Source of the DNA: a virus
DNA length: 64,000 bases
Strand: one strand, 5' to 3'
Virus record (IMG/VR): IMGVR_UViG_3300034060_001466
Coordinates: 186,001-250,000 of that record
Of the stretch, positions 5,585 to 24,178 are shown one piece after another. How positions within the stretch are numbered: the first letter of the stretch is position 1; each line of letters begins with the position of its first letter. The notes below the pieces were generated by a model that worked only from the letters and a program-made list of their open reading frames with translations, was not told where the DNA came from and searched no databases. The position numbers and the translations under genes were made by a program.

Positions 5585-5716
5585 TTAACTTATACCACTA
5601 GAACCTCGCAATACCCCAAAATCTTTAATCGTCTCCATTGCAATCACATTAACTGTGCCTGCCGGATACTGATTCCAGTTTTGAGTATTTTTTGATATGT
5701 TCGTAGTTATTTGCAC
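5585..5716 (-). CDS. Small late protein, unknown function
   Basis: A 43-codon frame with a GTG start: MQITTNISKNTQNWNQYPAG and on to a GSSGIS end. Support is the late box GATAAATAA 20 bases upstream, an A-rich leader and a terminator after the stop. The composition (WNQYPAGTVNVIAM) recalls a beta-rich structural fragment. Too short to assign. Confidence 0.55.
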   Translation of the reverse strand: MQITTNISKNTQNWNQYPAGTVNVIAMETIKDFGVLRGSSGIS

Positions 5717-5736
5717 GAGTTTAATTTTTTTGTCTA

Positions 5737-5746
5737 GTTATTTATC
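5737..5746 (-). promoter_or_regulatory. Late promoter (ATAAATAA type)
   Basis: Minus strand GATAAATAAC before the 43-codon gene. A GGTATAATAA box overlaps just upstream (5750-5760), giving tandem late and middle-type signals. Confidence 0.6.
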
Positions 5747-5792
5747 TAGTTATTATACCAACTTTTTAAAAAAGGTTTCCCTTTACTAAAAA

Positions 5793-6356: not shown

Positions 6357-6373
6357 TTTAAAAAGTAATTTTT

Positions 6374-6384
6374 GTTTATTTATT
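6374..6384 (-). promoter_or_regulatory. Late promoter (AATAAATAA type)
   Basis: Minus strand TTAATAAATAAAC about 20 bases before the 6356 start, overlapping the stop region of the gene at 6383-6934. Confidence 0.5.
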
Positions 6385-6934: not shown

Positions 6935-6951
6935 TAGGGATCTTATTTTTA

Positions 6952-6961
6952 TTATTTATCC
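6952..6961 (-). promoter_or_regulatory. Late promoter (GATAAATAA)
   Basis: The box overlaps the stop codon of the 6956-7213 gene and lies about 20 bases before the 6934 start. Confidence 0.55.
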
Positions 6962-7213
6962 CTTAGTTCTGCCCAAAACTTCTACTGATACAGATACTCC
7001 ATCTGGATTCTTTCTAACTCTGATAGTCGCTTCATCGAATCCCCTAATCCACAGTAGATCTTCAAGTACTTCCTGAACATCGTCCGGATAGACTTCCGGA
7101 TGAACTAGCCCCGGTTGGTACGGGTCATGTTCTAATTTCTCAGTAAACTCAAGAACGAGACGTTTCATGTCCGCCTCGTTCTTTAGTGCATTTAATATAG
7201 AGCCTTTTGCCAT
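6956..7213 (-). CDS. Conserved-looking small protein, unknown
   Basis: 85 residues with no signal peptide or membrane segment. Alternating helix and strand pattern; the C-terminal DEATIRVRKNPDGVSVSVEV looks like a beta hairpin. Its ATG overlaps the stop of the upstream gene (TAATG), suggesting translational coupling with the 232-residue protein. Function not recognised. Confidence 0.65.
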   Translation of the reverse strand: MAKGSILNALKNEADMKRLVLEFTEKLEHDPYQPGLVHPEVYPDDVQEVLEDLLWIRGFDEATIRVRKNPDGVSVSVEVLGRTKG

Positions 7214-7911
7214 TACGATACGTATTTTGCAAAGTTAACTGCTGCCTTGTAAGCATCTTCATACGAATGAATTGTCTTAGCACCACGTAGTCTAAAAGGA
7301 ATATGATCTACTGCCCAACCAGCAAGGGTCATTTCTTCTTCTGACGCTTTATGGTCAGAGGTACTCTTTGCCCATTCTTCGCACTCTTTATAATACGAGT
7401 CCAGGTGCTTGCCGTAGAACTTTTCGTATTGAGGAAGGTCTTGTTCAGCAGGTTTCCATTTAGCATCAAATAGTTTATCGCCTTTTCCGAATGCACAAGA
7501 AGCACGGTGAGAATAACCAATCCACTGCTTTGCCTTCTTACTCCATGCAGTATGAGGATGAGATCCCTTTGTTGCTCTGAGGCCATTGTTGTAGTACCAC
7601 CAACCTTCTTCAATTGATCCAACGTAAACTCCGTCTGGATTCATGCATGAATTGGGTAATGAGTACTCATCGTCTGGTCCGAACTTATGAACTCCTACCT
7701 TTAGCCCAGTAGTTGCTTCAATTTGTTTAATACATTCAGGATTTACAGCCCAACCTTCCAAATCTCTTTCAGGTCGGATTCGGCTTACTAACTTAGTAAA
7801 TCCCAGATCCAAGTGGATCTTATTTAATTTAGTTTTGCCAGTGTAGTGAGGAAATCTCTCGAACTTCAACTGAATTTTGCCAAGGTATGGCGTTTGATTT
7901 TTAATTAACAT
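7213..7911 (-). CDS. Unknown 232-residue protein
   Basis: Soluble, rich in Trp, Tyr and His, with possible metal or ligand residues (GSHPHTAW, SYYKECEEW, AVDHIPF). No family recognised. It opens MLIKNQTPYLGKIQLKFERF and is coupled to the small gene that follows. It lies between tagged head proteins and the 62-residue peptide, so a late or virion-associated role is possible but unsupported. Confidence 0.65.
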   Translation of the reverse strand: MLIKNQTPYLGKIQLKFERFPHYTGKTKLNKIHLDLGFTKLVSRIRPERDLEGWAVNPECIKQIEATTGLKVGVHKFGPDDEYSLPNSCMNPDGVYVGSIEEGWWYYNNGLRATKGSHPHTAWSKKAKQWIGYSHRASCAFGKGDKLFDAKWKPAEQDLPQYEKFYGKHLDSYYKECEEWAKSTSDHKASEEEMTLAGWAVDHIPFRLRGAKTIHSYEDAYKAAVNFAKYVS

Positions 7912-7925
7912 ATACTGTTATTTTT

Positions 7926-8114
7926 TTAATAAGGATCAACTACCTCATCGACTGCGTCAGATAAGTCTTCGCCGACCGAGTTTATTAAATCCTTTGTTGC
8001 GGTAGCTTCGCCACCGGTTGCCACGTCAACTGCATCCTTTACGACTGCGATTGGTGACAATGCTGTTTTTACTGTTGCGCTTGCTATATTAGCGATTGCT
8101 CCGAATAGTCCCAT
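7926..8114 (-). CDS. Small amphipathic peptide, unknown
   Basis: 62 residues: an Ala/Ile/Val-rich N-terminal half (MGLFGAIANIASATVKTALS) and an acidic C-terminal half ending DEVVDPY. The N-terminus could be an amphipathic membrane-binding helix. It sits just after tRNA-Ser in transcription order. No family recognised. Confidence 0.55.
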   Translation of the reverse strand: MGLFGAIANIASATVKTALSPIAVVKDAVDVATGGEATATKDLINSVGEDLSDAVDEVVDPY

Positions 8115-8130
8115 TGTTTATTGATTTTTT

Positions 8131-8218
8131 TGGCGGAGGATGTAGGATTCGAACCTACGGTACCTTGCGGTACAACAGTTTTCAAGACTGCCGCGATCGA
8201 CCACTCTGCCAATCCTCC
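8131..8218 (-). tRNA. tRNA-Ser(TGA)
   Basis: Class II cloverleaf apart from the main array: acceptor GGAGGAT/ATCCTCC, anticodon loop CTTGAAA, long variable arm TACCGCAAGGTA, discriminator G and encoded CCA. Confidence 0.92.
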
Positions 8219-10243: not shown

Positions 10244-10256
10244 TATTATACTAAGA
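10244..10256 (-). promoter_or_regulatory. AGTATAAT promoter
   Basis: Minus strand TTAGTATAATAATTC upstream of the repeat lipoprotein, overlapping the end of the metallopeptidase gene. Confidence 0.5.
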
Positions 10257-10652
10257 ATTTGTGCAGAGTTTCCGAATAAGCCATCTTCTGGCCTCAAGTT
10301 GATCGCGATATCCTCTCTTATTACACGTTATCTCGTATGGATGTTTTTCGTAACTTGTTCGGTATTCTCCGTATTTTTCCATGTCCTGTTTGAAATGGGT
10401 GTATTCATGGATTACTGTGCTGCACCAAGAAAGTAACGACCTGTGTCTTTTTGGATTTAAAATGATTGTGTTTTGACAAGGTTCATACATTCCGAAATGT
10501 ATATGGTTCGGATCAATCTGAATCTTCAACGTTTTGAGATTGTTGTACTTACTTGGGCCATACTTTTCAATACACCATCCCAAAAGAAGATTCGCACTCT
10601 TCTTATTAATGTATTCTCTCACGGTAAGGTTATTTATCATAGTTTTAAGCAT
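10251..10652 (-). CDS. Small HExxH zinc metallopeptidase-like protein
   Basis: 133 residues (start may be the Met at 10640). Metal motif VIHEYTHFKQD at about 92-102, then HPYEITCN with a Glu that could be the third ligand, as in small minigluzincin or SprT-like proteases. No signal peptide, so probably cytoplasmic or virion-borne. One of three HExxH-type proteins in the window (others at 19285 and 44882). Confidence 0.6.
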   Translation of the reverse strand: MLKTMINNLTVREYINKKSANLLLGWCIEKYGPSKYNNLKTLKIQIDPNHIHFGMYEPCQNTIILNPKRHRSLLSWCSTVIHEYTHFKQDMEKYGEYRTSYEKHPYEITCNKRGYRDQLEARRWLIRKLCTNS

Positions 10653-10693: not shown

Positions 10694-11296
10694 ATGAATT
10701 ACACAAAAGAAATGATCGAGGCTGCAGTTAAGGCAAAGGGTTATGCTTGGTTCGAAGGGGCCAAAGACTATGACCTAAATCTAGTTGGGGTTAGAAATAA
10801 CTCAGCGGCAATCGCAGATAAAGTTACTAATCTATTTGACGATTGGATGACTGCTTCTTATAAAGTTAACGGCGTATGGCAATTTAACTGCTGGCCAATA
10901 ACTACTGATCCGGGTAAGAAAGCTATGCTTGAATATCACAATCCAAATGGAGTTGCTCGAGTAGTTCCAGGACAATATCGTGGAATGTGGGCGATTGGAT
11001 TACACCAGGGCAAATACGAAGCACTAAGACAGGTTAAGCCAGTTAAAGTTTATCGTGATAAAAACAAAGACATGAAGTATGACGAAACAACAATTCAAGA
11101 AGGAATCTTTGGAATTAACGGTCACCGCTCTAACCCAAAAACTCAATCTGAATACGTTGAAAACTGGTCCGAAGGTTGTCAAGTATTTAAAAAGGTTGCA
11201 GACTTTAATGCCTTAATGAAACTTGCAAATCTAGCTAAAGCAATCCACGGAAATTCATTCACTTACACTCTATTGGAATCAACTGATATTGTTTAA
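10694..11296 (+). CDS. L,D-transpeptidase-like peptidoglycan enzyme (putative endolysin)
   Basis: 200 residues, no signal peptide. The region around 140-165 (FGINGHRSNP then VENWSEGCQVF) resembles the His...SxGC catalytic pattern of YkuD-type L,D-transpeptidases and related phage cell-wall hydrolases, with Cys as nucleophile. It opens the plus-strand lysis and envelope module and has its own strong terminator. The class is inferred from the motif; the bond it acts on is unknown. Confidence 0.55.
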   Translation: MNYTKEMIEAAVKAKGYAWFEGAKDYDLNLVGVRNNSAAIADKVTNLFDDWMTASYKVNGVWQFNCWPITTDPGKKAMLEYHNPNGVARVVPGQYRGMWAIGLHQGKYEALRQVKPVKVYRDKNKDMKYDETTIQEGIFGINGHRSNPKTQSEYVENWSEGCQVFKKVADFNALMKLANLAKAIHGNSFTYTLLESTDIV

Positions 11297-11316
11297 GAAT
11301 TTACGAGTTTACTAGT

Positions 11317-11344
11317 AACCCCCAGCTTAAACTGGGGGTTTTTT
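11317..11344 (+). terminator. Intrinsic terminator
   Basis: CCCCCAG/CTGGGGG stem with loop CTTAAA-like bases and a T run, right after the L,D-transpeptidase-like gene. Confidence 0.85.
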
Positions 11345-11370
11345 AATGACTCTTTTTTAGGTCAGTAATT

Positions 11371-11380
11371 GATAAATAAC
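11371..11380 (+). promoter_or_regulatory. Late promoter (GATAAATAAC)
   Basis: Seventeen bases before the ATG of the GH19 endolysin. Probably the main promoter of the downstream envelope module. Confidence 0.65.
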
Positions 11381-11396
11381 AAAAAACCCTTTTCAA

Positions 11397-12221
11397 ATGC
11401 TATTAAAGAATGGATCTAATGGCCCAGAGGTTGCCAAAATGCAAGCACTCCTAGGAGTAGGCGCAGATGGAAGCTTCGGACCTGGAACAGAAACCGCTGT
11501 CAAAGCATGGCAGCAAGCAAACGGGCTTACTCCTGACGGTATCGTCGGAGATGCTACTTGGGCTAAGATGTTTGGTGCAGCTCCAGTTGCAGCTCCAGCA
11601 GCTACGCCAATCCCACCATCAAGTTTTAAACTTGAAAAACTAGCTGGACATGTACCAGCAGCAGTAATCGCTCAAATTCCTGACACAGCTGCAAAATTCG
11701 GAATCACTAATCCTTTAAGATTAGCTCACTTCCTTGCGCAATGTGGACACGAAAGTGGAGGATTCAAAGCAGTTAACGAGAATCTAAACTATTCAGCTGA
11801 CGGTCTTAAAAAGATCTTCGGAAAGTATTTTCCTGGTAACTTAAACGAGTCTTATGCTCGTCAACCTGAAAAAATCGCTGCTAGAGTGTATGCTTCTAGA
11901 ATGGGTAATGGAGATGAAGCTTCGAAAGAAGGTTTTAAATTCAGAGGTCGCGGTTACATTCAATTGACTGGTAAATCGAATTACACAAACTTTGCAAAAT
12001 TTATCGGCGAGGATACTGTTGCTAATCCGGATCTAGTCGCTACAAAATACCCACTCGCATCGGCTGCTTTCTTTTTTCAGTCTAATGGCTTATGGGCGAT
12101 TTGTGATAAAGGAGCAGACACTGCTGCTGTAACTGCGGTAACTAAGAGAGTTAATGGTGGAACGATTGGTTTGGCTGACCGTATTAAACACTTTAACGAG
12201 TATTACGCTTTATTAAAATAA
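11397..12221 (+). CDS. Modular endolysin: peptidoglycan-binding domain plus GH19 lysozyme
   Basis: 274 residues. Residues 1-60 form a PG_binding_1 repeat (GPEVAKMQALLGVGADGSFG ... DGIVGDATW). An Ala/Pro linker follows, then a GH19 chitinase-class domain with the catalytic Glu in AQCGHESGGF, the FRGRGYIQLTGKSNY signature and ADRIKHFNEY at the end. It cuts the glycan strand of peptidoglycan. No signal peptide, so release would depend on a holin; candidates follow in the same module. Confidence 0.9.
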   Translation: MLLKNGSNGPEVAKMQALLGVGADGSFGPGTETAVKAWQQANGLTPDGIVGDATWAKMFGAAPVAAPAATPIPPSSFKLEKLAGHVPAAVIAQIPDTAAKFGITNPLRLAHFLAQCGHESGGFKAVNENLNYSADGLKKIFGKYFPGNLNESYARQPEKIAARVYASRMGNGDEASKEGFKFRGRGYIQLTGKSNYTNFAKFIGEDTVANPDLVATKYPLASAAFFFQSNGLWAICDKGADTAAVTAVTKRVNGGTIGLADRIKHFNEYYALLK

Positions 12222-12239
12222 AAAAACAAATGTTCTTCG

Positions 12240-14162
12240 ATGAAAAAAATAATCTTTATTCTATTCGCACTAGTCACGTGCGCACTCTCTACTGGAGTTT
12301 ATGCTCAAAGTGGACCTCCTGCCCCAGGCGCAGGAATTTGGACAATCATTGATACGACATATCAAGTTGGTACAAGTACGCTAGGTCAGTCCAAAGCCAG
12401 AATCACGCTAAAGAATGCAACTATCTCAAAATACACAGGTATTCAAACTCGAATATTTTACGATAAGGATGCATTTGCTAGTGCATCAGTTGCGCTAGTT
12501 GGATCGCCTACTAACTTATATTTACAGTCAGTAGATAGTAATGCTACCGGTTACGTAACCCTTTCATTAGTGTATACTGGAAACAGCAGTACTTATACTC
12601 TAGCGGACGGTGAAACCTTTGAAATAACCTTTACTCACGTTGCAGCTGCATCGTTTTATGCGTTACCCTCAATCAGTGCTCTTACGTTTAGTGGCGCAGC
12701 TTCTTTTACTACACTCGCTGCATCTCAGACAGGTTTAGATACTACTCTAAGCAAGCATAGCTACGGCGGTGTATGGGAACAGCCTACTTTAGACTTCCAT
12801 GGTAAATTTACAAACGTTACTGGAACTGGAGCAAAGAACTTAACTTTAGCTCTTGAGAAAAAGGTAAAAGCTGGAGGTACTTGGGGAACTCATGATACGT
12901 ACGTAACTGACCTAAGTGGAAATTTTGCATTTAGCGAAATTATTGATACTACTTATTATGATGTACGCCTTGCAATTAAAGGTGATACGATGACGGTAGG
13001 AAACGTTATATCAACAGCAGATGCTCAATTAATTAATCAATGGGTGTTAGGGTCAGCGACTCCTTCCGGATTCGACTTCTATACAGCAGATGTTAACGGT
13101 TCAACTAACGTAACAATAACTGATGCATACGGAGTATTTGGTAGAATTGCTGGAAGATTCACTGAATGGCCTAATGCCGTTGAGGATGTTAAGTTCTTTA
13201 CTGCTGCCCAATACACAACAATCACAGGATCTCCATCGACTAACTATACTTCAACTTATGCTGGAGTAACAAACTTCTACTACGACATTTTACCAGGACA
13301 ACCTGATTCAGTTCAATATTACGTACTTGTTCCAGGAGATGCAAACGGTACGGGTTACAACATGGCTCGTTTAACGCCAATTGAAGTAATGATCAATCCA
13401 CCGGCTGGAACCCCAGCTCAAACTGAAAACGTAATTGATATGACAGTTGAATACGATTTTCCAACGAGCTCAATTGAAGTTAATCTTCCTAATCTTTCTG
13501 TAAATTCAGGAAATCTAGTAGAAATACCGGTTACTGTTAAAACTGGAGGAAAGGATATTTCGTCTCTTCAATTAGCAATGTTATACGATCAGACCTTATT
13601 GGAATTTAAAGACATTACTAACTCTGCTAAATCAATGCAGTGGATGTCTTCATTCAATCCAACTGGCGGAATTATCGAATGGGCCGGTTACGATCCATCA
13701 GCTAACAAAAGCTACATGATTCCAGATAATTATGAAGTTTTTAAATTGAGATTTATCGCACTTAAACCTCAAATTGATTGGGAGGCATCGCCTTTGTATA
13801 CTTCTAGAAAATTCTCAGGAGACAATCAATCTAGGGATTTATCAATCACCGCAGCAAACGGCATCTTAATCGTTGCTAAAATGGCTGGACCTTCTGGTCA
13901 ATTGGATAACTTTGAAATTACCGCATTTCCCAATCCAACTACTGGAGAGATAAGCTTTGACTTCTCAGTTAAGAATAGCGGAATGGTTAAGTTAGTAATC
14001 GTTGACCTAAACGGATCAGAACAATTTGTTATACTTGATCAAGACATGCCAGCTGGAAAATACGTATACTCTTCCAATATTAATCAGTTAACTAGCGGAT
14101 TATACGTTGCTTCTTTACAGGCAGTTGATCAAATTAACTCTACTAAAATCATAAAAAAATAA
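12240..14162 (+). CDS. Exported cohesin/dockerin-like protein with a T9SS C-terminal sorting domain
   Basis: 640 residues. Signal peptide to about residue 23 (TGVYAQ). An Ig/cohesin-like domain (about 30-180), a second beta domain, a dockerin-like segment (STADAQLINQWVLG ... YTADVNGSTNVTITDAYG), a cohesin-like domain (about 415-535, EIPVTVKTGGKDISSLQLA) and a C-terminal 80 residues of Por-secretion type (ITAFPNPTTGEISFDFSV ... LTSGLYVASLQ). Such sorting domains direct proteins to the Bacteroidetes type IX secretion system, which anchors or releases them at the cell surface. A T9SS cargo in a phage-like genome is unusual. The dockerin-like part is repeated in the protein at 17339. Confidence 0.75.
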   Translation: MKKIIFILFALVTCALSTGVYAQSGPPAPGAGIWTIIDTTYQVGTSTLGQSKARITLKNATISKYTGIQTRIFYDKDAFASASVALVGSPTNLYLQSVDSNATGYVTLSLVYTGNSSTYTLADGETFEITFTHVAAASFYALPSISALTFSGAASFTTLAASQTGLDTTLSKHSYGGVWEQPTLDFHGKFTNVTGTGAKNLTLALEKKVKAGGTWGTHDTYVTDLSGNFAFSEIIDTTYYDVRLAIKGDTMTVGNVISTADAQLINQWVLGSATPSGFDFYTADVNGSTNVTITDAYGVFGRIAGRFTEWPNAVEDVKFFTAAQYTTITGSPSTNYTSTYAGVTNFYYDILPGQPDSVQYYVLVPGDANGTGYNMARLTPIEVMINPPAGTPAQTENVIDMTVEYDFPTSSIEVNLPNLSVNSGNLVEIPVTVKTGGKDISSLQLAMLYDQTLLEFKDITNSAKSMQWMSSFNPTGGIIEWAGYDPSANKSYMIPDNYEVFKLRFIALKPQIDWEASPLYTSRKFSGDNQSRDLSITAANGILIVAKMAGPSGQLDNFEITAFPNPTTGEISFDFSVKNSGMVKLVIVDLNGSEQFVILDQDMPAGKYVYSSNINQLTSGLYVASLQAVDQINSTKIIKK

Positions 14163-14169
14163 ACAAACA

Positions 14170-14511
14170 ATGTCTGAGGAAACAAACGCAGCAGAAACAA
14201 ATGATGGAACATGGTCAGGTCTTAAGAAGACCCTGATCGGTACGATCTCTACGGCAGTTTTAGCTGGAGGTACATGGCTTACAACTACTCTATTTAACGG
14301 AGGTGACCATGAAAAAGAAGAAACGAAAACTGAACAGGTTGCACCAGCAGCTCAACCAGTTATCAACGTTAATCTTGAAAACAATAATACAAATCAACAA
14401 AAACAATCAGGCGGAACTAACACAGTAATCCGTGAGAGAGTTGTTGAGAAAGCTCCAGCTGAAAAACCAGCGGAAAAGAAGAAGAGCGAGTCTGAAGACG
14501 CTCCTTGGTAA
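14170..14511 (+). CDS. Single-span membrane protein with a disordered charged tail
   Basis: 113 residues: N-terminal cytoplasmic MSEETNAAETNDGTW, one hydrophobic segment at about 22-42, then a Glu/Lys/Pro/Asn-rich tail (PAEKPAEKKKSE) ending DAPW. The shape fits an inner-membrane spanin-like or holin-associated protein. The N-terminus resembles that of the protein at 18538 (MAEETN). It ends at a terminator. Confidence 0.6.
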   Translation: MSEETNAAETNDGTWSGLKKTLIGTISTAVLAGGTWLTTTLFNGGDHEKEETKTEQVAPAAQPVINVNLENNNTNQQKQSGGTNTVIRERVVEKAPAEKPAEKKKSESEDAPW

Positions 14512-14515
14512 TCAG

Positions 14516-14540
14516 AAGGCGGATTAACGTCCGCCTTTTT
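14516..14540 (+). terminator. Intrinsic terminator within the envelope module
   Basis: AAGGCGGA/TCCGCCTT stem with a short TTAACG loop and a T run, a few bases after the stop of the 113-residue protein. Confidence 0.75.
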
Positions 14541-14572
14541 ATTTTCAGAACTAAAAATAAACTACTACTACA

Positions 14573-14935
14573 ATGTCTAATTTGAAAAAATTATTAATCG
14601 GTGAATCTGCATACGTAAAGGTTGAAGACAAGAATCGCTTCTACTACATGCTACAACAAATGCAGTCAAACCGTTGGAAAATTACAGGAATCGTTCTATT
14701 TCTTTTCTTCTTTATTATTGCTGGAATTAATTCAGCTGTATTTTTTGGAGTAACAATCGCAGAAGATTGGAAAGAATTACTACTTCTTTTATTGGGAGCC
14801 TTTGTTGGTAACCTAAATAAAGTAGTTGACTACTGGTTCAATTCAGAAGATCGTGATAAAATGTTAATTCAAAAGGTTGACGAAGAAGATGGAGTATCTC
14901 TTTCTAATACTACTTCAAATAACGTAACCGAATAA
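14573..14935 (+). CDS. Holin-like two-span membrane protein
   Basis: 120 residues with two strongly hydrophobic segments (about 36-58, ITGIVLFLFFFIIAG; about 68-88, LLLLLLGAFVGNL) and polar ends. Size and topology fit a class II holin that would open the inner membrane for the GH19 endolysin. The family is not recognised; the call rests on topology and neighbours. Confidence 0.5.
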   Translation: MSNLKKLLIGESAYVKVEDKNRFYYMLQQMQSNRWKITGIVLFLFFFIIAGINSAVFFGVTIAEDWKELLLLLLGAFVGNLNKVVDYWFNSEDRDKMLIQKVDEEDGVSLSNTTSNNVTE

Positions 14936-14937
14936 TC

Positions 14938-15657
14938 ATGAAGAGATTAGCACTTATCTTAATAATGCTTTTCTCAGTAAGCTTATGTATTGCTCAGCCT
15001 GGTTCAATCAAGACTGAGCAGTACCGAGCTTCTTTTGAAAAGAAGATGTCAATTGACTCTGTTCCGGAATATACTGACACAATTAAAATTCCTATTCAAT
15101 TATTAAAGATTGGAATTAATGAGGAGCTTTACGAAATGTATCCTGAGTTAAAGGATAAACGGGTTGGTCTTGGTGTAACAAATATTGTATTGGAATATTT
15201 GGAATACACAAACCGTTTTGTATTTACTGAAGACAAACTTGAAATTAAAGAGAGAATGATTAGTCAATTTAAAGCGTCTGATAAAGGATTCACTGAGAAT
15301 AAACTAGACGGCCGTGGTAAAATCAAGTTAGCAAAATACTTTGTCTATATTGAAGTTTACGATTTCTCTGTATCAGAAGATGAAGTCGTTAGAATAAACG
15401 GCGAGTCTAAAACAACTCAAACAACTCGACTGGGTTTACAGGTAAAATTCGTTGATGCTGAGACTGGAGAAGTTCTAGTTGGTTCAGGATTAGGCGAAGC
15501 TTCCACTATTAAAACCGTTTCTATTTTAGATGGAGTGGACGATAGTGAAATTAAATTTAACCAATCTACCATTGGTATTACAACTAAAAAGGCGTTAGAG
15601 ACAGCATCGTCTAGGATAGTGGTGAGAATGATTAAGAAGAATATCTTCAAAAATTAA
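14938..15657 (+). CDS. CsgG-like secretion-channel family protein
   Basis: 239 residues with a signal peptide ending near IAQPG. The body follows the CsgG/curli-assembly pattern: GLGVTNIVLEYLEYTNRFVF with a following ERMISQF helix, a KYFVYIEVYDF strand, LGLQVKFVDAETGEVLVGSG and a late TTKKALETASSRIVVRMI helix. CsgG forms the outer-membrane pore for curli export. A canonical lipobox is not seen (C17 is preceded by Leu), so anchoring differs or is absent. It might form an outer-membrane pore for export or for lysis. Confidence 0.6.
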   Translation: MKRLALILIMLFSVSLCIAQPGSIKTEQYRASFEKKMSIDSVPEYTDTIKIPIQLLKIGINEELYEMYPELKDKRVGLGVTNIVLEYLEYTNRFVFTEDKLEIKERMISQFKASDKGFTENKLDGRGKIKLAKYFVYIEVYDFSVSEDEVVRINGESKTTQTTRLGLQVKFVDAETGEVLVGSGLGEASTIKTVSILDGVDDSEIKFNQSTIGITTKKALETASSRIVVRMIKKNIFKN

Positions 15658-15671
15658 AATATGAAACGCAA

Positions 15672-17342
15672 ATGTATGTTAAAAAAATTATACTGCTTAT
15701 TGCGTGGATCTTAGTATCGTCATTGGGAATGGCTCAAACCTTTTCCTACAATTACACTGATCCATGTACTGGAATAAACAAAACAATACAAGTTCCATCA
15801 AACGGAATAACAGTAACCTATTACGGTCAAGTAAATACATTTCAACCAACGGATTTTTACAATGGAGGTTTTGAGACATGGGCTCAAGGCGTTTATTCTT
15901 CCTTTGGTAATAACAACCCATGTGCAAGTTTAGTAGGAATGCCTACTTCAGTTAATATAGCACAAAATACAGCAATTAGTTTTCTAGGAATAGTAAACTC
16001 ATTATCGGCTCTATCTGATATGGCTGGCGGATCAAGTAATATGATTGGCGGAACTGTCTCTAGTGTACAAAATTCCTCCAAGTCAAAGGGTAACTCCAAA
16101 AATAAAGGCGGGGCGGATAAACCTGCAGAAAATAGTACTTCAACAAATGCACAATCTAATGGAAGTACTGGTGGTAGCTCTAACTCTGGGACCACTAGTA
16201 ACAATGGGAGCTCTACTAGCAGTAGTGGATCTTCTACGACACAGGGCTCACAGACTCAAGGTTCGAACGAAACTGGCTCGACAAGCAGCGGAGGATCTGG
16301 AGAACCAGGATCAACTGCCGGTAACGGAACAGCTGGGTCTCAAGCTGGCAATGGAACCTCTGGGTCTCAAGCAGGTGGATCAACCACTGGAAGCGGTTCA
16401 ACGACCGGCTCAACTACCGGAAGCGGTTCAACGACCGGCTCAACTACCGGAAGCGGATCAACAACCGGCAACGGAACTACCGGATCTCAAGCTAGCGGAT
16501 CAACTTCAAATAGCGGCAATGTTAATGGAGGCGGGTCTGGAACGACCGCTGGCTCTGGAACAAGCGGCTCAAATAATCAGTCAACGCCAACTTCTGAAAC
16601 AGAAGCAGGTGGAAAAACTAACTTAATTGGCGGATCAGTTGGTTCAGTACAGGAATCAACTTCCGCAGGTGGAGGAGCAGCCGGTGCCTCTAATAAAAAT
16701 GGGAATCGACCTAGTATTTTAGCAAGCAGCGATTTCGTTGGATTCAATTTTAAAAATTCAGATGTTACAGTTGGAGGAAAGGTCACTGGAGGTTACTCAT
16801 CAATGAGATGGGACGGAAAGAGATCTCACGGAATTAGTGCAGACTATACGACTGCTATAAAGGGTCCAAATATTACAGGCTTTTATGCATTCATGAATAA
16901 GCGAAGAATAGATTTAATCTCTACATCGCTTACTATTGGTTTTGAAAGACAAATGACTGTCTATGGAACATTAGCAGTAGGTCAAATGTGGACTCTAAAT
17001 AAGCCGAAAAACCTAAAAGCTCTTTATATGCTAACCGGTTCAGTCGGCCAAGTATCAGGGACTGCTTTTATAGGAACTGCTGCTATTGCTGGAGGAATGT
17101 ATGACTGGAAAATCTCTAAGAGAATTTCAGTAAAAATGTTATGTTTGTACGTGTATGCCCCATACGTTAGTTACTATAATGATGTTCTATTAAAATCACC
17201 ACATGTGGTTTTACCTATTATGGGAACTAATATCGGGATAACTAAACGATTTAAGCTTAACATAAACGCCGGTGGAGCTTGGGCGATTAATGAATCCACA
17301 TTAAACTATACCATCATGCTGGGAACTCGCATGCTATTATGA
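15672..17342 (+). CDS. Exported protein: long Gly/Ser/Thr linker and beta-barrel-like C-terminus
   Basis: 556 residues with a signal peptide (IAWILVSSLGMAQ). Residues 25-130 are a compact N-terminal domain with two Cys. About 135-325 is a low-complexity Ser/Gly/Thr/Asn linker with a perfect in-frame DNA repeat (TTGSGSTTGS units at about 16378-16458). About 340-556 has alternating amphipathic strands (VTGGYSSMRWDG, ISADYTTAIKGP) ending in aromatic/Leu residues, as in outer-membrane barrels. The phrase NMIGGTVSSVQ/NLIGGSVGSVQ flanks the linker on both sides. Unknown role at the host surface. Confidence 0.6.
   Translation: MYVKKIILLIAWILVSSLGMAQTFSYNYTDPCTGINKTIQVPSNGITVTYYGQVNTFQPTDFYNGGFETWAQGVYSSFGNNNPCASLVGMPTSVNIAQNTAISFLGIVNSLSALSDMAGGSSNMIGGTVSSVQNSSKSKGNSKNKGGADKPAENSTSTNAQSNGSTGGSSNSGTTSNNGSSTSSSGSSTTQGSQTQGSNETGSTSSGGSGEPGSTAGNGTAGSQAGNGTSGSQAGGSTTGSGSTTGSTTGSGSTTGSTTGSGSTTGNGTTGSQASGSTSNSGNVNGGGSGTTAGSGTSGSNNQSTPTSETEAGGKTNLIGGSVGSVQESTSAGGGAAGASNKNGNRPSILASSDFVGFNFKNSDVTVGGKVTGGYSSMRWDGKRSHGISADYTTAIKGPNITGFYAFMNKRRIDLISTSLTIGFERQMTVYGTLAVGQMWTLNKPKNLKALYMLTGSVGQVSGTAFIGTAAIAGGMYDWKISKRISVKMLCLYVYAPYVSYYNDVLLKSPHVVLPIMGTNIGITKRFKLNINAGGAWAINESTLNYTIMLGTRMLL
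16378..16470 (+). repeat. In-frame tandem repeat coding for TTGSGS units
   Basis: Copies of a unit of about 30 bases (ACCGGAAGCGGTTCAACGAC type) lie head to tail within the 15672 gene. Such repeats change length easily by slippage, so linker length may vary between isolates. Confidence 0.7.
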
Positions 17343-18517
17343 GAAAGTTTATCATCACACTAATTGCTACATTGATTATAGGGTCGGTGTATGCTCAACC
17401 ATTTACTTATTCAGGATATGTTTATGGAGCTAATGGTCAAGGCTTACAAAATATACCAGTCTTGCTATACGGCAAAAGGATTGTTCAATATGAAGTAACT
17501 TTTCCTACTTATCCGACTTCTCCTAGTTATACAACCGGTACCGTAATTCCATCATCGGACGATGCTACACATGGACCATTTAATATAGGATTTAGTTTTA
17601 CCTACTTTGGAAATACGTATACTCAATTTTACGTTGGATCAAATGGATGGATCGGGTTTAGCTCGGGCCAAACAACTGGATATACTGCAGCCTTTATTCC
17701 AAATGCAGGGTCTCCATTAAACGCAATTTTAGCGGATTGGGAGGACTTATTTCCTGGATCAGCTAACATCAGATACGTAACATCAGGAACATCGCCCAAT
17801 AGATCGTTGACTGTCTCTTTTAATGCAGTTCCGCATTATGGGTGTAGAACAAATCTACACACATTTCAGTTCATTCTATATGAAACGTCGAATTTAATAG
17901 ATATAAATTATGCCTCAAAACCTTTATGTGGTAGTAATAACGCGACCGCCGGTCTAATATCAACTTCTTCGTCAACGGTTGTTCCAGTCGGTGGAAAGAA
18001 TGCATCTCAATGGAGCGCAACTAATTATTCAGTTAGATTTACACCAGCTTCACCGGAAACTACATTCAGCATAAAGGGAACATATTACACTAATTCGTTG
18101 GGTCTATATTCAATGGTACCTAATTTAGATGACGCGTCCCATGATTTCCAAATTAGATTAGAAAATCTGACTATTAGTAATCCAATATCAACTGCTGCTC
18201 AATACCCTATTCAAATGTTATTATACTCGGTGATGCCAAGCTCTAAATTGTATTATACAATGGACGTTAATCAAGATACTCGGTTTAATGTAACGGATTC
18301 CTATTGCATATTCGGTAAAATTTCAGGTAGATTTCCAAATTGGATAAATGCATATCCGTCGTATCGGATATTTACGCCAGCTCAATGGACAACTATTAAT
18401 TCCGGGACAAGTGATCTACGCTCCAGTATACCAGGAGTTCAATCAATGATTATTTCAACACCAACTAATGGAGGAACTACTAGCTTTTATCTGTTACGGA
18501 CTGGCTATACACAATAA
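17339..18517 (+). CDS. Exported dockerin-like protein, partner candidate of the T9SS cargo
   Basis: 392 residues; the start overlaps the previous stop (ATGA). Signal peptide to about residue 19 (GSVYAQ). A central beta-sandwich (FTYFGNTYTQFYVGSNGWIG) resembles nidogen-like or Bacteroidetes surface-protein domains. The C-terminal 90 residues (MDVNQDTRFNVTDSYCIFGK, RFPNWINA, FTPAQWTTI) match the dockerin-like part of the 12240 protein. It lacks a T9SS sorting domain, so it could be retained by binding the cohesin-like domain of its neighbour. Confidence 0.65.
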   Translation: MRKFIITLIATLIIGSVYAQPFTYSGYVYGANGQGLQNIPVLLYGKRIVQYEVTFPTYPTSPSYTTGTVIPSSDDATHGPFNIGFSFTYFGNTYTQFYVGSNGWIGFSSGQTTGYTAAFIPNAGSPLNAILADWEDLFPGSANIRYVTSGTSPNRSLTVSFNAVPHYGCRTNLHTFQFILYETSNLIDINYASKPLCGSNNATAGLISTSSSTVVPVGGKNASQWSATNYSVRFTPASPETTFSIKGTYYTNSLGLYSMVPNLDDASHDFQIRLENLTISNPISTAAQYPIQMLLYSVMPSSKLYYTMDVNQDTRFNVTDSYCIFGKISGRFPNWINAYPSYRIFTPAQWTTINSGTSDLRSSIPGVQSMIISTPTNGGTTSFYLLRTGYTQ

Positions 18518-18537
18518 ATAAAAAAAACAAATTAAAT

Positions 18538-18819
18538 ATGGCAGAAGAAACAAACCCTACTTCAGGATTTACGGATACCTTCTTTTCTAAACTAAAAGAA
18601 CAATCATTTACCATCGTACTTATGATAGCGGTTATTTGGTATCAAGGCGTGATGATGGAAGAGCGTGTAGCGTATTGGCAAAAACTATATGAAGCACAAA
18701 AAGCCTATACTGAGCAAACAGTAAAGGATGATAAACAAATTATGCTCGATCGAATACAATACTTACAAGACCAACGTGATAAATACGTTGAGGATGCAAT
18801 AATTGAACTAAAAAAATAA
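18538..18819 (+). CDS. i-spanin-like membrane protein with periplasmic coiled coil
   Basis: 93 residues: short cytoplasmic start, one membrane span at about 23-41 (FTIVLMIAVIWYQGVMM), then a charged coiled coil (QIMLDRIQYLQDQRDKYVED) to the end. This N-in layout is that of phage inner-membrane spanins, which help disrupt the outer membrane at lysis. No o-spanin lipoprotein is identified next to it; the exported neighbours may take that role. Confidence 0.5.
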   Translation: MAEETNPTSGFTDTFFSKLKEQSFTIVLMIAVIWYQGVMMEERVAYWQKLYEAQKAYTEQTVKDDKQIMLDRIQYLQDQRDKYVEDAIIELKK

Positions 18820-18832
18820 TAAATTTTATAAG

Positions 18833-19306
18833 ATGAAGAAGTTTATTTTATTGCTTGCAGTTTTACTATTGGTACAGCTGCTGGCTTTTTCGCAAACTAG
18901 CCCAATTCACATGTGTATTAAAATAGACACAGTATATTCTACCGCAAAGGTTAGGGAATTAGGAAACCGTGATATTCGGTTTGGTGTAAAGCAAATAGCA
19001 GAAGACCTACTTTCTTCTAAATACTGTCTATCTGATGCAGGATCCCCAATTAAGATTGAGATCTATTATTTCGGTATTCCTAAAAGTACCATACGTATTG
19101 CTGGAATAGAAAAGACTGAGCAGGTTACACAAGTCGCTGTTCGAATTTATTATAACGGGCAAAAGTACGAAGGGACTGGCGAGTCTGAGACTGAGGTGAG
19201 AGCCGTAATGATTGAATTGGAAGAGGGTGCTATGCCGTTTTCTAAAATGACAGTATCTAATTCTATCAAAAAAGCACTTGAACAATGTATTTTAAAAATG
19301 CCTTAA
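18833..19306 (+). CDS. Exported small protein with CsgG-like tail pattern
   Basis: 157 residues with a signal peptide (LLVQLLAFSQ). The body contains RELGNRDIRFGVKQIAEDLL, a KIEIYYFGIPK strand, a YYNGQKYEGTGESETEVRAV strand pair and a C-terminal TVSNSIKKALEQCIL helix, echoing the strand-and-helix order of the CsgG-like protein at 14938. It could be a shorter paralogue or accessory. It overlaps the next gene by 22 bases. Confidence 0.55.
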   Translation: MKKFILLLAVLLLVQLLAFSQTSPIHMCIKIDTVYSTAKVRELGNRDIRFGVKQIAEDLLSSKYCLSDAGSPIKIEIYYFGIPKSTIRIAGIEKTEQVTQVAVRIYYNGQKYEGTGESETEVRAVMIELEEGAMPFSKMTVSNSIKKALEQCILKMP

Positions 19307-19752
19307 TTGTATTAATATTAACGATTCCAGTATTTGGATTTTCTCAAATAGTAATAGACGATGTCGGAGACGGCTGGAAGGCTAGAGTCGAGAGGGCTAT
19401 TTTACTTGTAAAAGATACTGACTCAGTTAGTTACCAAACTCTGATTACGAATTGTAAACGAATTGAGTTTATAATGGGCGATAGATCTACTAACCTTCCA
19501 CCCAATACTATTGTGATTAATACAAAGGACGTAACTAGTCCGTCTATTAATAATTTAGCGGCCGTATTGGTGCATGAGTCGTATCACCTGTACTTATGGA
19601 ATAACTTGATTAAGTTTACAGCAAGAGAAGAGGAGCTCATGTGTTACATGCATGAATATAATTTTTTATGTAAGTTAACTGATGTCGAGGACTGGTTATT
19701 CCTAAATGCAGTTAACCAAATAATACAGTTAAAAAATACACGTAACAAATAA
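19285..19752 (+). CDS. Exported HExxH-type putative metallopeptidase
   Basis: 155 residues with a signal peptide (TIPVFGFSQ). Motif LVHESYHLYLW (HESYH) at about 95, followed by REEELMCYMHEY, whose Glu residues could supply a third ligand. That pattern suggests a zinc-dependent peptidase in the periplasm or outside. It is placed between CsgG-like and beta-barrel genes, so it may trim the exported proteins or host envelope. Activity is not proven by the motif alone. Confidence 0.55.
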   Translation: MYFKNALIVLILTIPVFGFSQIVIDDVGDGWKARVERAILLVKDTDSVSYQTLITNCKRIEFIMGDRSTNLPPNTIVINTKDVTSPSINNLAAVLVHESYHLYLWNNLIKFTAREEELMCYMHEYNFLCKLTDVEDWLFLNAVNQIIQLKNTRNK

Positions 19753-20495
19753 TGAAGTTTATATTAACGATACTATTACTGACAGTCTCATTACCTGTAT
19801 TTAGTCAAATTAAAAAATCAATATCGGTTGGAGGAGATGGAACTAGGGGAAACTTTAGTGCAATTGGTATTACAACGAAAGCTGAATTAAAAAGAGATAC
19901 TGGATCGTATCAATGGAATCTAAATACTACTTACCGTTGGAGCAAGCAATCCGCGTATGGAAAATCTGAAATGACTCAGTACGAAAATGAAGTCTACTTG
20001 ACTGGAAATATTTCAAAACAGATAGGTAAGTTTAAAGTTATTGGATTTACTGAAGATGAGAGATCATACATGAGAAAAATAGATCTTCGAAGCTCAGCTG
20101 GTTTGGGATTAGGCGTATCAATTATCAAGAATAAGAAGTTCGATATTGTTTTCTCTGAAGTAATTTTGCCAGAGTATTTTTGGTCCAGCATTAAGGTTTC
20201 AAATAATAACTTTACAGTAAGAGCATCATCTAGACTTAGAGCAAATTACGAAAGCGGATTGATTAAGATCTCGTCAGTTACTCTATTTCAGCCAGCAATT
20301 TATTCAAGCAGAGAAGTTTCTTTTCTAGATAATTTAAACATGCGAAGTACAAACACAATCGCACTTAAGATTAAAAAGAATTTAGAAATAGGATTAGTTT
20401 ATACGTATAGCTATCAAGGTTACCCTCATTACATAACAGACTCAGTTAATCCTTCTCAGGAAACTGCGTCAGTTCTTTTAAAGTATATCTTTTAA
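19752..20495 (+). CDS. Predicted outer-membrane beta-barrel protein
   Basis: 247 residues; its ATG shares bases with the previous stop (TAATG). Signal peptide (LTVSLPVFSQ), then regular amphipathic strands (GSYQWNLNTTYRWSKQ, VIGFTEDERSYM, LEIGLVYTYSYQG) ending in ASVLLKYIF, with the terminal Phe that targets barrels to the BAM complex. The pattern is like DUF481-type barrels. Last gene of the plus-strand module. Confidence 0.65.
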   Translation: MKFILTILLLTVSLPVFSQIKKSISVGGDGTRGNFSAIGITTKAELKRDTGSYQWNLNTTYRWSKQSAYGKSEMTQYENEVYLTGNISKQIGKFKVIGFTEDERSYMRKIDLRSSAGLGLGVSIIKNKKFDIVFSEVILPEYFWSSIKVSNNNFTVRASSRLRANYESGLIKISSVTLFQPAIYSSREVSFLDNLNMRSTNTIALKIKKNLEIGLVYTYSYQGYPHYITDSVNPSQETASVLLKYIF

Positions 20496-21693: not shown

Positions 21694-23055
21694 TTACTTT
21701 GAAGAATACTTTAGGTTTTTCTTTAGCTCAAATAAATCTTCTCGATACATCTCAGTTGGATCCTTCTTTTTAATATCGACTAATAGCGATTTAATATCAG
21801 CAACTTCTTTCAATAATTGCTCGTAAGTTTCTTTAGTCAGAGAGTGGATTGGCATGTTGAGTAAGTAGTTATACGATCCATTAACTTCGTCGAAGTCTGC
21901 CGTTTGCAGGTAGAGAATGATCTCTTTACGTGGAACGTTATTTACTTTAAGTTTACCATCAATAATAAGCTTAATGAATTTAGCTCGGTTCGATAAGTAA
22001 ATTAATTCTTCACCGTACTTCTTGATTAAGAATGCTTTGCGTTTATCATAGAAACTTAATCTAAAGTTTACAAAGTAATCTACCACTTGAGTAATGTCCT
22101 CAAAGATTGCAAGCTTGCCCTTTTCATTTAAGCAGGTTAAGTTCTCAGTTTCAGTCTCAATCATCTTAAGGGTTTGGTCGAGCCGGCCTTTTCCAATTAG
22201 GTCAGCTAGTGTAGCTCTTGCAAATTTAAGAGTGTAGTTGATTCCATTTGAAGAATTGTCATCGTACGAAACAATAATTCCTCTATCTTGTAGAGTATTC
22301 AAATGAACTTCGTATTTCTGAAAAGTCATTGATGGCGGAAGCTCTGTAATCTTGACAGTAGTAGTATTCAGAACTTCGTATACTCCACGCATAATGTACT
22401 GGTTAGTTCCAACGACTGACTCGACTGGGCCAATGTAGTCTCTCCACCATGGAAGCAGTTTGCCTATTTTCTTGCCATCTAATACTTTAAGACATGAGTC
22501 TACTAAGTCTAATGGATTACGATTTAATATGTTAGTGGCAAATCCTACTGCAATACCTGAGCTTCCGTTTAGTAGAACGGTTGGGATAATTGGCAAGAAG
22601 AATTTAGGTTCAATCGTATTTCCTTCTTCGACTTGATTCTCAAGCAATTCAAAATCCTTGTAAAGAAGTCTAAAATTTCCAGTAAGTTTAGTTGAAATAT
22701 AACGAGCCGCACCAGCTTCAGGAGATCTTAGAGATCCGAACTGGCCTATCTCGTCAAGAAGAGGTAATGAATTCTTAAATGACTGAGCCATCCCAATGAT
22801 TGCACCATTTAGAGACCCGTCACCGTGATGGTAGTGGGCATCTGCTGCGATCTTACCACCTAACTGGAATATCTTTAATGGCTTTTCATTGCCTGATTTC
22901 CAGACTTTATCTGAGATATAAATGATTTTACGCTGAGTAGGTTTGAAACCATCTATTACAGAAGGAATTGCCCGGTTTTCTAACGTGTACATTCCGTACA
23001 TCGCATAGTCCTGATCTAAGTATTCAGTTACTGTTTTATTCTTTACGTGTGTCAT
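21694..23055 (-). CDS. Type II DNA topoisomerase medium subunit (T4 gp52-like)
   Basis: 453 residues of GyrA/ParC breakage-reunion type. YHHGDGSLNGAIIGMAQSF is followed by the GSLRSPEAGAARYIS site with catalytic Tyr119 after Arg118. The end is a coiled-coil gate (ETYEQLLKEVADIKSLLVDI). It lacks the long C-terminal wrapping domain of gyrase, as does T4 gp52. Works with the large subunit at 25940-27775; about 2.9 kb of unrelated genes lie between them. Confidence 0.93.
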   Translation of the reverse strand: MTHVKNKTVTEYLDQDYAMYGMYTLENRAIPSVIDGFKPTQRKIIYISDKVWKSGNEKPLKIFQLGGKIAADAHYHHGDGSLNGAIIGMAQSFKNSLPLLDEIGQFGSLRSPEAGAARYISTKLTGNFRLLYKDFELLENQVEEGNTIEPKFFLPIIPTVLLNGSSGIAVGFATNILNRNPLDLVDSCLKVLDGKKIGKLLPWWRDYIGPVESVVGTNQYIMRGVYEVLNTTTVKITELPPSMTFQKYEVHLNTLQDRGIIVSYDDNSSNGINYTLKFARATLADLIGKGRLDQTLKMIETETENLTCLNEKGKLAIFEDITQVVDYFVNFRLSFYDKRKAFLIKKYGEELIYLSNRAKFIKLIIDGKLKVNNVPRKEIILYLQTADFDEVNGSYNYLLNMPIHSLTKETYEQLLKEVADIKSLLVDIKKKDPTEMYREDLFELKKNLKYSSK

Positions 23056-24178
23056 GCTTTAATATTAATTTACTAAAATAGAATACAATTGACCCGATGA
23101 TTACACCGATTGCTAAGTTATGAGTAGCTAACGAAATAATAACTGTCAATATAATACTCAATAAGTTAAGTTTATTTCCTGATTTTATGCTTTGCCAATC
23201 CCCAGTTTGATATACAACTACCAACATTACTCCAATTAATCCAACTAGCGGTAGTTGTTCAATCCATTTCCCAAACAATAGAATAATTAGAGAGAGCCCA
23301 ATCCCTGCAACTATTCCAGAGAGTCGATGCTTTGCTCCAGCATTTACGTTTAAATTAGTCTGTCCGACTAGGACGCAGCCTCCCATTGTTCCAAAGAATC
23401 CGCTAACTATATTACCAAGCCCTTGAGCAAATGTCTCTTTTGCTTTATCGCCGTGTTCATTTAATTTATGAGACACAGTATCGACAGTCAACAGAGATTC
23501 AGTTAAGCCAGACACAGCCATCCCGAATGAATACGGTAAGACTGTCAATAGCAGACTCCAACTAAAGGTTGGGATAGCTAGCGTTGGCAAGCTTGCGGTT
23601 ACTGGCGATAGATCGCCGACTGTCGCTAAGCCTAATGGAATTCCCATTAAGCAACCAACTGTAATCGACACTAACGCTGGAGGAAAACTAAATTTCCGTG
23701 AGGACCATATCATTGCAGCTGCGCATAATAATATAGTTGATATAGTTAATATTAGGCCAGTAGAAGATGGATTACCGATAGTTAAGTATTTAAACTGGCT
23801 TACTAAAATCATAATCGCTAGTGCAATTAAGAAACCTGAAATAGCAGAAGGCGGAATCTTTTTAAATATTTTCCATGCACCTGAAGCCCAAATTATCAAT
23901 TGAATAATTCCAGCAACTACTACTCCAAGGAAAAGCGATTCAATTCCAGCAATTGATACGAGGCCGGCCATAATTACGGCAGTTGCCCCAGTCGCTCCAC
24001 TAATTAAACCAGGTCTTCCGCCGAATATTGCAGTAGACAGAGCCATGAAGACTGCTGCCCATAATCCAATTTGAGGAGAAGCTCCGACTAATAAAGCAAA
24101 TGAAATTGCTTCAGGTACAAGAGCAATTGCAATAGTTAAACCTGAAAGAATTTCTGTTTTTATTTGGTTTACATTCAT
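23036..24178 (-). CDS. SulP-family anion transporter without STAS domain
   Basis: 380 residues, hydrophobic throughout, with about ten to twelve spans. The start (EILSGLTIAIALVPEAISFA) and the following GASPQIGLWAAVFMALSTAI and GGRPGLISGATGATAVIMAG are SulP signatures. SulP carriers move sulfate, bicarbonate or other anions. The usual cytoplasmic STAS domain is absent; the protein ends after the last spans. It overlaps the topoisomerase gene start by 20 bases, so it is part of the phage operon. An ion transporter in a phage is unusual. Confidence 0.88.
   Translation of the reverse strand: MNVNQIKTEILSGLTIAIALVPEAISFALLVGASPQIGLWAAVFMALSTAIFGGRPGLISGATGATAVIMAGLVSIAGIESLFLGVVVAGIIQLIIWASGAWKIFKKIPPSAISGFLIALAIMILVSQFKYLTIGNPSSTGLILTISTILLCAAAMIWSSRKFSFPPALVSITVGCLMGIPLGLATVGDLSPVTASLPTLAIPTFSWSLLLTVLPYSFGMAVSGLTESLLTVDTVSHKLNEHGDKAKETFAQGLGNIVSGFFGTMGGCVLVGQTNLNVNAGAKHRLSGIVAGIGLSLIILLFGKWIEQLPLVGLIGVMLVVVYQTGDWQSIKSGNKLNLLSIILTVIISLATHNLAIGVIIGSIVFYFSKLILKHDTRKE

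Follow-up and report, generated by a model that had tools for sequence, protein, structure and literature searches.

A 64,000-nucleotide stretch of viral DNA (the window; bases 186001–250000 of the 270,136-base IMG/VR virus record IMGVR_UViG_3300034060_001466) contains, at positions 10694–20495, an island of twelve plus-strand genes with minus-strand genes flanking it on either side. The genes are named here by their first position. The series 12240-14170-(14573)-14938-15672-17339-18833-19285 forms a module of its own. The reading developed below, to which we give an even chance, is that this phage-specific envelope module reshapes the cell surface of the infected Bacteroidota host and presents on it an exchangeable binding protein, in many cases a lectin. 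All open reading frames (ORFs) of a preliminary description of this DNA were found again at the same coordinates on the plus strand:

10694–11296, plus strand: putative cell-wall enzyme, matching phrog_3000 (without annotated function) and, more weakly, the endolysin phrog_33083; neighbour, not core.
11397–12221, plus strand: endolysin with PG_binding_1 and GH19 domains (phrog_181); neighbour of variable position, not core.
12240–14162, plus strand: core; surface protein of the type IX secretion system (T9SS) type, with signal peptide, dockerin-like region, cohesin and sorting domain.
14170–14511, plus strand: core; small protein whose charged tail is rich in Pro, Gln and Asn and closes with a conserved Trp; its single hydrophobic segment is weak.
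14573–14935, plus strand: small membrane protein, holin-like, with hydropathy values of 2.62 and 1.44; weak PHROG matches only.
14938–15657, plus strand: core; envelope protein of predicted CsgG/PelC fold, with signal peptide.
15672–17342, plus strand: core; signal peptide, N-domain, helix, disordered linker and predicted 12-stranded outer-membrane barrel.
17339–18517, plus strand: core; predicted exported protein with a conserved half-dockerin scaffold and a swappable insert.
18538–18819, plus strand: small protein in which a coiled-coil-like tail accompanies a single hydrophobic stretch (hydropathy 1.53), weakly matching the holin phrog_9316; lysis-associated neighbour.
18833–19306, plus strand: core; small, predicted exported protein related to 14938.
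19285–19752, plus strand: frequent member; predicted exported, putative zinc metallopeptidase (HExxH).
19752–20495, plus strand: optional member; DUF481 outer-membrane barrel protein.

Nine of the 11 junctions between these genes are overlaps or gaps of at most 20 bp, the remaining two being 100 and 61 bp long.

The IMG/VR database was scanned with 14938, whose relatives were encoded by 251 stretches, and with the 14938 alignment, for which 357 viral stretches were found; 80 loci were kept from each scan. Together with Flavobacterium phage immuto, an isolate, and a stretch of a 634-kb phage, those of the first scan gave a comparison set of 82 loci, many of them near-duplicate or incomplete; exclusion of identical 14938 sequences left 59 distinct loci. 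Relatives of 17339 were counted in all 82 loci (this number takes in shared-domain matches in 12240 and in a different protein of the 634-kb phage), those of 14938 in 81, 15672 in 80, 12240 in 78, 14170 in 77, 18833 in 68, 19285 in 56, 11397 in 49, 14573 in 45, 10694 in 25, 19752 in 19 (many low-scoring) and 18538 in 6. The order 12240-14170-14938-15672-17339-18833 was complete in 41 of the 59 distinct loci, the other 18 being incomplete or called in a different order. In immuto, the module lies at 10.5–16.4 kb, after the replication and nucleotide genes and outside the structural genes; immuto genes 13, 15, 17 and 18 correspond to 17339, to the C-terminal half of 12240, to 14938 and to 15672, respectively. 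The preliminary description would have given up its proposal of an envelope module had related phages lacked it, or had the folds proved unrelated and export absent; the related isolate carries it, and the predicted folds fit export.

At least six exported proteins had been proposed, and a hydrophobic N-terminal segment is present in seven (12240, 14938, 15672, 17339, 18833, 19285 and 19752), which are predicted to leave the cytoplasm via Sec signal peptides. By a crude rule that cannot tell signal peptides from other N-terminal hydrophobic segments, and that also flags 14170 (46/59), 14573 (17/30) and 18538 (3/3), signal-peptide-like N-termini occur in distinct relatives of 12240 (59/60), 14938 (58/58), 15672 (62/62), 17339 (53/54), 18833 (50/51), 19285 (38/43) and 19752 (11/11). 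The same rule flags no endolysin relative (0/20 for 10694 and 0/37 for 11397).

The domain scan bore out the earlier naming of 12240 as T9SS cargo, since both Por_Secre_tail and Cohesin were detected. The protein comprises a dockerin-like region (residues ~183–373), a cohesin (412–511) and a T9SS sorting domain (563–638). Among the alignment members, Por_Secre_tail was found in 23/23, Cohesin in 21/23 and Dockerin_1 (E ≤ 0.01) in 6/23. Each of 10 phage records contains one sorting-domain match, and the cohesin PF00963 (42.2 bits in 12240 against a cut-off of 24.1) is above cut-off in all 10. A signal peptide and a C-terminal sorting domain, the features that define T9SS type A cargo, are both present in 12240. 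The host T9SS would thus carry it across the outer membrane, and the sorting domain would fix it to the surface. On our own reading, and from one below-cut-off match in 1 of the 10 records, a further cohesin-like region is possible in its N-terminal part.

The C-terminal scaffold of 17339 aligns with residues 183–373 of 12240 (hhalign 99.7%, E 2.3e-26). This scaffold was present in 47 of the 59 distinct loci and the insert of the window protein in 6, one of which (L083) has it in a different gene. In the 17339 family (n = 19), the domains Lectin_C (14), Laminin_G_3 (5), Ig_7 (4), GEVED (1), PA14 (1) and Dockerin_1 (3, E ≤ 0.01) were detected. The term "dockerin-like", applied earlier to 17339, holds for some family members (3/19 here and 6/23 for 12240), both window proteins being below cut-off. 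By reading, the dockerin-like module of 17339 is without the second motif present in 12240; possibly, the cohesin of 12240 joins the 17339 scaffold. The search with 17339 in named phages gave one huge phage that matches in the insert too, and the insert resembles part of a 732-amino-acid protein of the 634-kb phage LR745206; by eye, the window insert looks nidogen-like. A diversity-generating retroelement was rejected as the origin of the varying lectins, RVT_1 being found in 0/10 records, which are perhaps incomplete.

Swapped domains are also, from general knowledge, typical of receptor-binding proteins, and the exported lectins could attach to virions on release and serve receptor binding. 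We consider such decoration of virions hardly probable, as Sec signal peptides and a T9SS tail lead away from virion assembly in the cytoplasm and the immuto module stands outside the structural region.

Two variants were seen beside these proteins. Two large proteins of LR745206 (L007 1114–3612, minus strand, and 11767–13965, plus strand) have N-termini resembling signal peptides, and both end, by eye, in what we take to be gliding-motility/T9SS type B tails. In the variant module of L090 (6406–8572), a cohesin/dockerin-like ORF lacks the sorting domain and the next, separate lipoprotein-like ORF ends, by eye, like one; a 139-amino-acid protein, barrel-like by eye, occupies the 15672 position.

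The name "CsgG-like" given to 14938 stands for the fold and not for the sequence. The AlphaFold2 model (23 sequences, mean predicted local distance difference test score, pLDDT, 71.3) is most similar to CsgG (VIA Z 12.0, root-mean-square deviation, rmsd, 3.6 over 170; Foldseek E 1e-6), followed by PelC (Z 10.1) and by several folds at Z 8–10, including LptE; families absent from the VIA lists of 14938 and 15672 are not thereby excluded. In BFVD, 14938 has a single match at E ≤ 0.001, to a phage protein that bears the name CsgG. As for the sequence, PF03783 (CsgG) matched 0 of the 23 alignment members at E ≤ 1 and 0 of 10 phage records, and hhalign against CsgG gave a probability of 0.9%, which is not significant; true membership of the CsgG family was rejected on these Pfam, hhalign and phage-record results. 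We read 14938 from its model as a CsgG/PelC-type envelope protein. A lipobox-like Cys is found by a loose pattern in 31/58 relatives. The smaller protein 18833, also called CsgG-like, is confirmed as a homologue of 14938 (hhalign 97.4%, E 1.3e-11). Sequence searches of the PDB with A1, A2 and A3 gave chance-level matches only.

The 15672 model (24 sequences, pLDDT 58.2; barrel blocks mostly 66–91, one at 47) shows an N-domain with two invariant Cys, a helix, a disordered Ser/Gly-rich linker of ~220 residues (120–343) and 12 strands at 348–555. The best matches are autotransporter barrels (NalP, Z 25.5, rmsd 2.7 over 234); FapF scores Z 19.9. Since the 234-residue NalP alignment exceeds the barrel region, it also takes in N-terminal residues, presumably those of the helix. 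The barrel and probably the helix fit a type Va autotransporter, whereas the position of the linker and the N-domain of ~65 residues do not. The beta-barrel-like ends proposed for two proteins were thus recovered, in 15672 as a modelled 12-stranded barrel and in 19752 as a DUF481 match above the Pfam cut-off.

Curli-type secretion (type VIII secretion system, T8SS) in diverged form would account for CsgG being the best structural match of 14938, for the name of the BFVD match, and for the low-complexity linker and FapF-like barrel of 15672. The CsgF and CsgE profiles gave no significant match with 14938, 18833, the 15672 N-domain or the 15672 barrel, the other module proteins being covered by Pfam scans only; the best CsgF matches (14938, 24%; 18833, 45%) span only about the first 20 residues, that is, the signal peptide. 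A likeness by eye of the 15672 N-domain to the CsgF motif was rejected, because hhalign was not significant and none of 25 alignment members matched CsgF at E ≤ 10. With PF03783 missing and no significant CsgG, CsgF or CsgE profile match (curlin repeats were not searched for), amyloid secretion of this kind is highly improbable.

The motif of the "HExxH-type" protein 19285 is present in 43/43 relatives, in agreement with the earlier label. Downstream of it, EE...Y..E is invariant in 15 aligned members, and Pfam gave a SprT-like match below cut-off. From these motifs 19285 is a putative zinc metallopeptidase, its acidic ligand being tentatively assigned; the gene is on the opposite strand in 5/41 distinct loci. 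In 14 of the 59 distinct loci (12 recognised by script and 2 from coordinates; e.g., L062, L016, L073 and L088), the gene for an EndoG-like nuclease with a predicted export signal lies between the homologues of 17339 and 18833. Three further matches lie upstream of the module, and in immuto the gene is directly upstream (L006 9935–10513). Both enzymes would act in the envelope. Just upstream of the island, on the minus strand (10251–10652), a second HExxH protein (HEYTH) with a weak DUF6782 match below cut-off is encoded.

Lectins, protease and nuclease might instead hold and digest outside polymers as a source of nutrients or nucleotides for the infected cell. The exported HExxH protein and nuclease in or beside the module and the lectin-type domains would suit this; no transporter was recognised among the recurrent module genes, in scans not aimed at transporters, and we regard scavenging as very unlikely.

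In the preliminary description, the island was a lysis cassette joined to a surface system. The exported envelope set is conserved and lysis-type genes are often near it, which agrees with part of that description; a lysis cassette with additions it is not. The cassette reading was overstated, because the surface genes keep their order while GH19 changes side, strand and distance. Among the 59 distinct loci, 27 have GH19 at a distance of up to 1.5 kb (17 on the module's strand, 10 on the opposite one) and 6 have it further away; of the 26 in which it was not found, 9 are flanked on each side by 4 kb or more and 17 have shorter flanks. In immuto, chitinase and holin genes are located at 43.7–44.8 kb, 27 kb from the module. 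In the record G122, GH19 is directly followed by the 18538 homologue, ~41 kb from the module, and 18538 is for this reason assigned to the endolysin.

The two cell-wall enzymes named earlier are 11397, with PG_binding_1 and GH19, and the putative enzyme 10694, known from its phrog matches, whose relatives occur in 27 phage records, mostly of uncultured and Bacteroides phages. "Holin-like" remains apt for 14573 as regards one clear hydrophobic segment, its PHROG matches being weak, and for a spanin-like protein no specific support was found. All 59 distinct relatives of 14170 end in W; a membrane segment is not established in this protein, because its best 19-residue hydropathy is 1.11. The slot before 14938 (n = 77 loci) holds a 14573-type gene in 38 loci, an immuto-gene-79-type gene in 21, an overlap by the 14938 ORF as called in 14, and others in 4. 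Gene 79 of immuto, which adjoins the chitinase and holin genes, is unrelated to 14573 and encodes a small membrane-type protein. A canonical lysis cassette forming a fixed unit with the module genes was not found: GH19 is present, the holin-like match is weak, spanin evidence is absent and the arrangement is variable. Lysis genes are frequent neighbours and not parts of the module.

The same data bear on a lysis-related breach, in which the CsgG-like protein, the small membrane-type proteins and the barrels would, once the endolysin has acted, open up the outer membrane or set the timing of lysis. It would explain the closeness of GH19 (within 1.5 kb in 27/59 distinct loci, with 18 bp between 11397 and 12240 in the window) and the 14573 or gene-79 relative before 14938 in 59/77 loci, and the excerpted text of PMC9004378 proposes a pinholin-like role for phage CsgG. 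Nevertheless, the lysis genes are separable (27 kb in immuto, ~41 kb in G122) and found on either strand, it is not obvious what a T9SS scaffold and exchanged lectins would do in lysis, and the immuto module follows replication genes; we consider the breach unlikely.

The module looks phage-specific as far as genomes and proteins were searched. Among 50,697 phage records, 12240, 14938, 15672 and 18833 match only four immuto records, two of which are the same isolate's genome; the named-phage searches covered 10694, 12240, 14938, 15672, 17339, 18833 and 19752. Neither a near-identity DNA search nor a protein search with 19752 gave a match in phages. The search of 84,980 species genomes with the 14938 alignment gave two loci, one on a 254-kb contig that belongs to a metagenome-assembled genome, the other on a 12.6-kb contig; the latter, from the seed genome, is taken as phage-like because its ORFs include module genes and GH19. 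Hidden Markov model searches with 14938 found it in 1/395 phylum genomes and 1/397 family genomes, in both cases on this 12.6-kb contig; at most seven candidates were scored per genome, so a distant homologue could escape. The 12240 profile matched in 129/149 bacterial genomes, and among the matches listed all but that of the seed contig start at about profile position 517, the sorting-domain end. A bacterial origin of the module was rejected, the CsgG-like protein being found in the phylum and family searches only on the phage-like contig.

Comparison of the window phage with immuto gave 34 reciprocal best hits among ORFs of at least 60 amino acids, a few of which are shadow ORFs; 14938 is first with 61.9% identity (median 40.9%, terminase 27.7%). 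In the comparison with G122 it ranks second among 99 (82.8%), behind 18538, and for G122 against immuto second among 27. Such high identity would follow from exchange between distant phages and equally from an unusual constraint.

The proposal that the module remodels the surface of the infected cell starts from export-type N-termini, a T9SS tail, a cohesin, a shared scaffold, domain swapping, HExxH and conserved order, all read from the sequences; T9SS export, the assembly, cohesin–dockerin joining and the purpose are what we infer. Beside the 15672 barrel, 14938 and 18833 would form an outer-membrane-associated CsgG/PelC-type assembly (the folds of 14938 and 15672 being predicted) that serves as a platform for export or anchoring. 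The 17339 product with its lectin or other binding insert would be displayed on this platform, possibly via the 12240 cohesin, with the exported protease and, in some phages, the nuclease acting around it.

As to purpose, our tentative choice, short of an even chance, is superinfection exclusion: receptors would be masked or trimmed, and foreign phage DNA would be cut as it comes in. It is slightly favoured over capture because of the exported HExxH protein, the EndoG-like nuclease (14/59) and the position after replication genes in immuto. The closest rival, in which we place less belief, is adhesion or aggregation: a displayed lectin would attach the infected cell to other hosts or to particles nearby, bringing progeny into contact with fresh cells ("sibling capture"). 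Binding-type inserts swapped on a conserved scaffold would suit it, and according to the excerpts similar proposals were made for the curli genes of pelagimyophages (PMC7029224) and for those in the genome of a marine Bacteroidetes T4-like virus (PMC7198788). Adhesion needs neither the exported protease nor the nuclease, and the excerpt on the curli-bearing phage Melnitz reports that no clumping was seen (PMC9004378).

A number of observations weigh against surface remodelling as proposed. The window insert of 17339, an unclassified domain at residues ~45–234, has no Pfam match, the C-type lectin PF00059 included, so "lectin" holds for relatives and not for the window member. In the window proteins the dockerin scores under the threshold, that of 12240 may be engaged within the same protein, and 17339 has no T9SS tail that would explain how it crosses the outer membrane. 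In a monomer model of pLDDT 71, we do not make out the pair of CsgG membrane hairpins among the strands of 14938; with the Pfam CsgG match missing and hhalign against CsgG not significant as well, a CsgG-type pore is unsupported. The AlphaFold2 models are modest overall (71.3 for 14938 and 58.2 for 15672, the other four models of each protein going down to ~46). The lead of 14938 over other proteins shared with immuto is narrow: the GH19 endolysin reaches 61.6% and is one of five others at 60.5–61.9%, and identity is low for further core proteins (12240 31.6%, 18833 27.9%, 15672 25.1%). GH19 near the module in 27/59 loci, and a protein in the slot before 14938 that is shared with the immuto lysis neighbourhood, both keep the link with lysis alive.

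Further features of the window are recorded here. Terminator-like hairpins at 11317–11340 (after 10694) and 14514–14539 (after 14170) would divide the island into three transcription units; the number of terminator-like sites is not above chance (9 observed, 6.7 expected). A Bacteroidota-type promoter pattern occurs seven times in the window (2.89 expected; 5 of 100 shuffles had as many) and not within the module, and the sigma-70 scan gave no excess. Nineteen tRNA genes are clustered on the minus strand at 2561–8218. A 380-amino-acid ORF with a sulfate permease family (SulP) match (23039–24178, minus strand) adjoins a topoisomerase IV/gyrase A-like gene (21697–23055). The G+C content is 0.52 at 44001–46000 and 0.49 at 58001–60000, compared with ~0.39 in most of the window.

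If surface remodelling is true, many large Bacteroidota phages re-dress the infected cell via the host T9SS and a phage platform, a single machine being conserved while the binding tip is exchanged, and the changed surface may alter what attaches to the cell. It would also become testable why phages carry CsgG-type outer-membrane genes, on which the excerpts of published work differ (fibres and capture, uptake, lysis timing); a cultured phage–host pair exists in immuto and Flavobacterium sp. LMO8. A bolder version, which we hold to be possible though doubtful, is a phage-specific secretion and surface-assembly machine of a kind not yet described. In it, the CsgG/PelC-fold pair and the autotransporter-like barrel would export or seat a modular lectin on a T9SS-anchored cohesin scaffold, and large Bacteroidota phages would exchange the cassette and swap the lectin tip only, so that the cell infected by each phage has a coat of its own.

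According to the excerpts of the papers concerned, curli genes occur in SAR11 phages (PMC9599517, PMC7029224), an OM43 phage (PMC9004378) and a marine Bacteroidetes T4-like virus genome (PMC7198788), for which a fibre, capture, uptake and lysis timing are variously proposed, and csgG is among the abundant virulence genes of marine phages (PMC7003362). Among the listed titles and abstract starts of the open-licence literature (bioRxiv being outside this scope), no T9SS-cargo/cohesin/lectin module in phages was found. Phage-borne CsgG-type genes are known already, and what is new is the T9SS, cohesin, lectin, barrel and HExxH parts without recognisable CsgG, CsgF or CsgE sequence.

The module resembles phage curli (T8SS) in being a phage gene cluster of conserved order that includes a CsgG-type protein of the outer membrane, and the excerpts report curli genes to be absent from SAR11 and OM43 hosts; unlike phage curli, the module has no Pfam CsgG and no detectable CsgF or CsgE, and adds a T9SS cargo, a cohesin/dockerin scaffold, swapped lectins, an autotransporter-like barrel and an HExxH protein. 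With the CsgG/PelC/LptE superfamily, 14938 shares the predicted fold, without a CsgG sequence match or evident membrane hairpins. With type V autotransporters and FapF, 15672 shares the predicted 12-stranded C-terminal barrel, and it differs in having ~220 disordered residues between the helix and the first strand and an N-domain of ~65 residues. The arrangement of a cohesin on the anchor-tailed 12240 and a dockerin-like module on the binding protein 17339, which would join the two, recalls cellulosome display, except that the second dockerin motif is missing from 17339. Finally, 12240 has the signal peptide and C-terminal sorting domain of Bacteroidota T9SS type A proteins and is phage-encoded; among the bacterial matches listed, only the one on the phage-like contig extends N-terminal of about profile residue 517.

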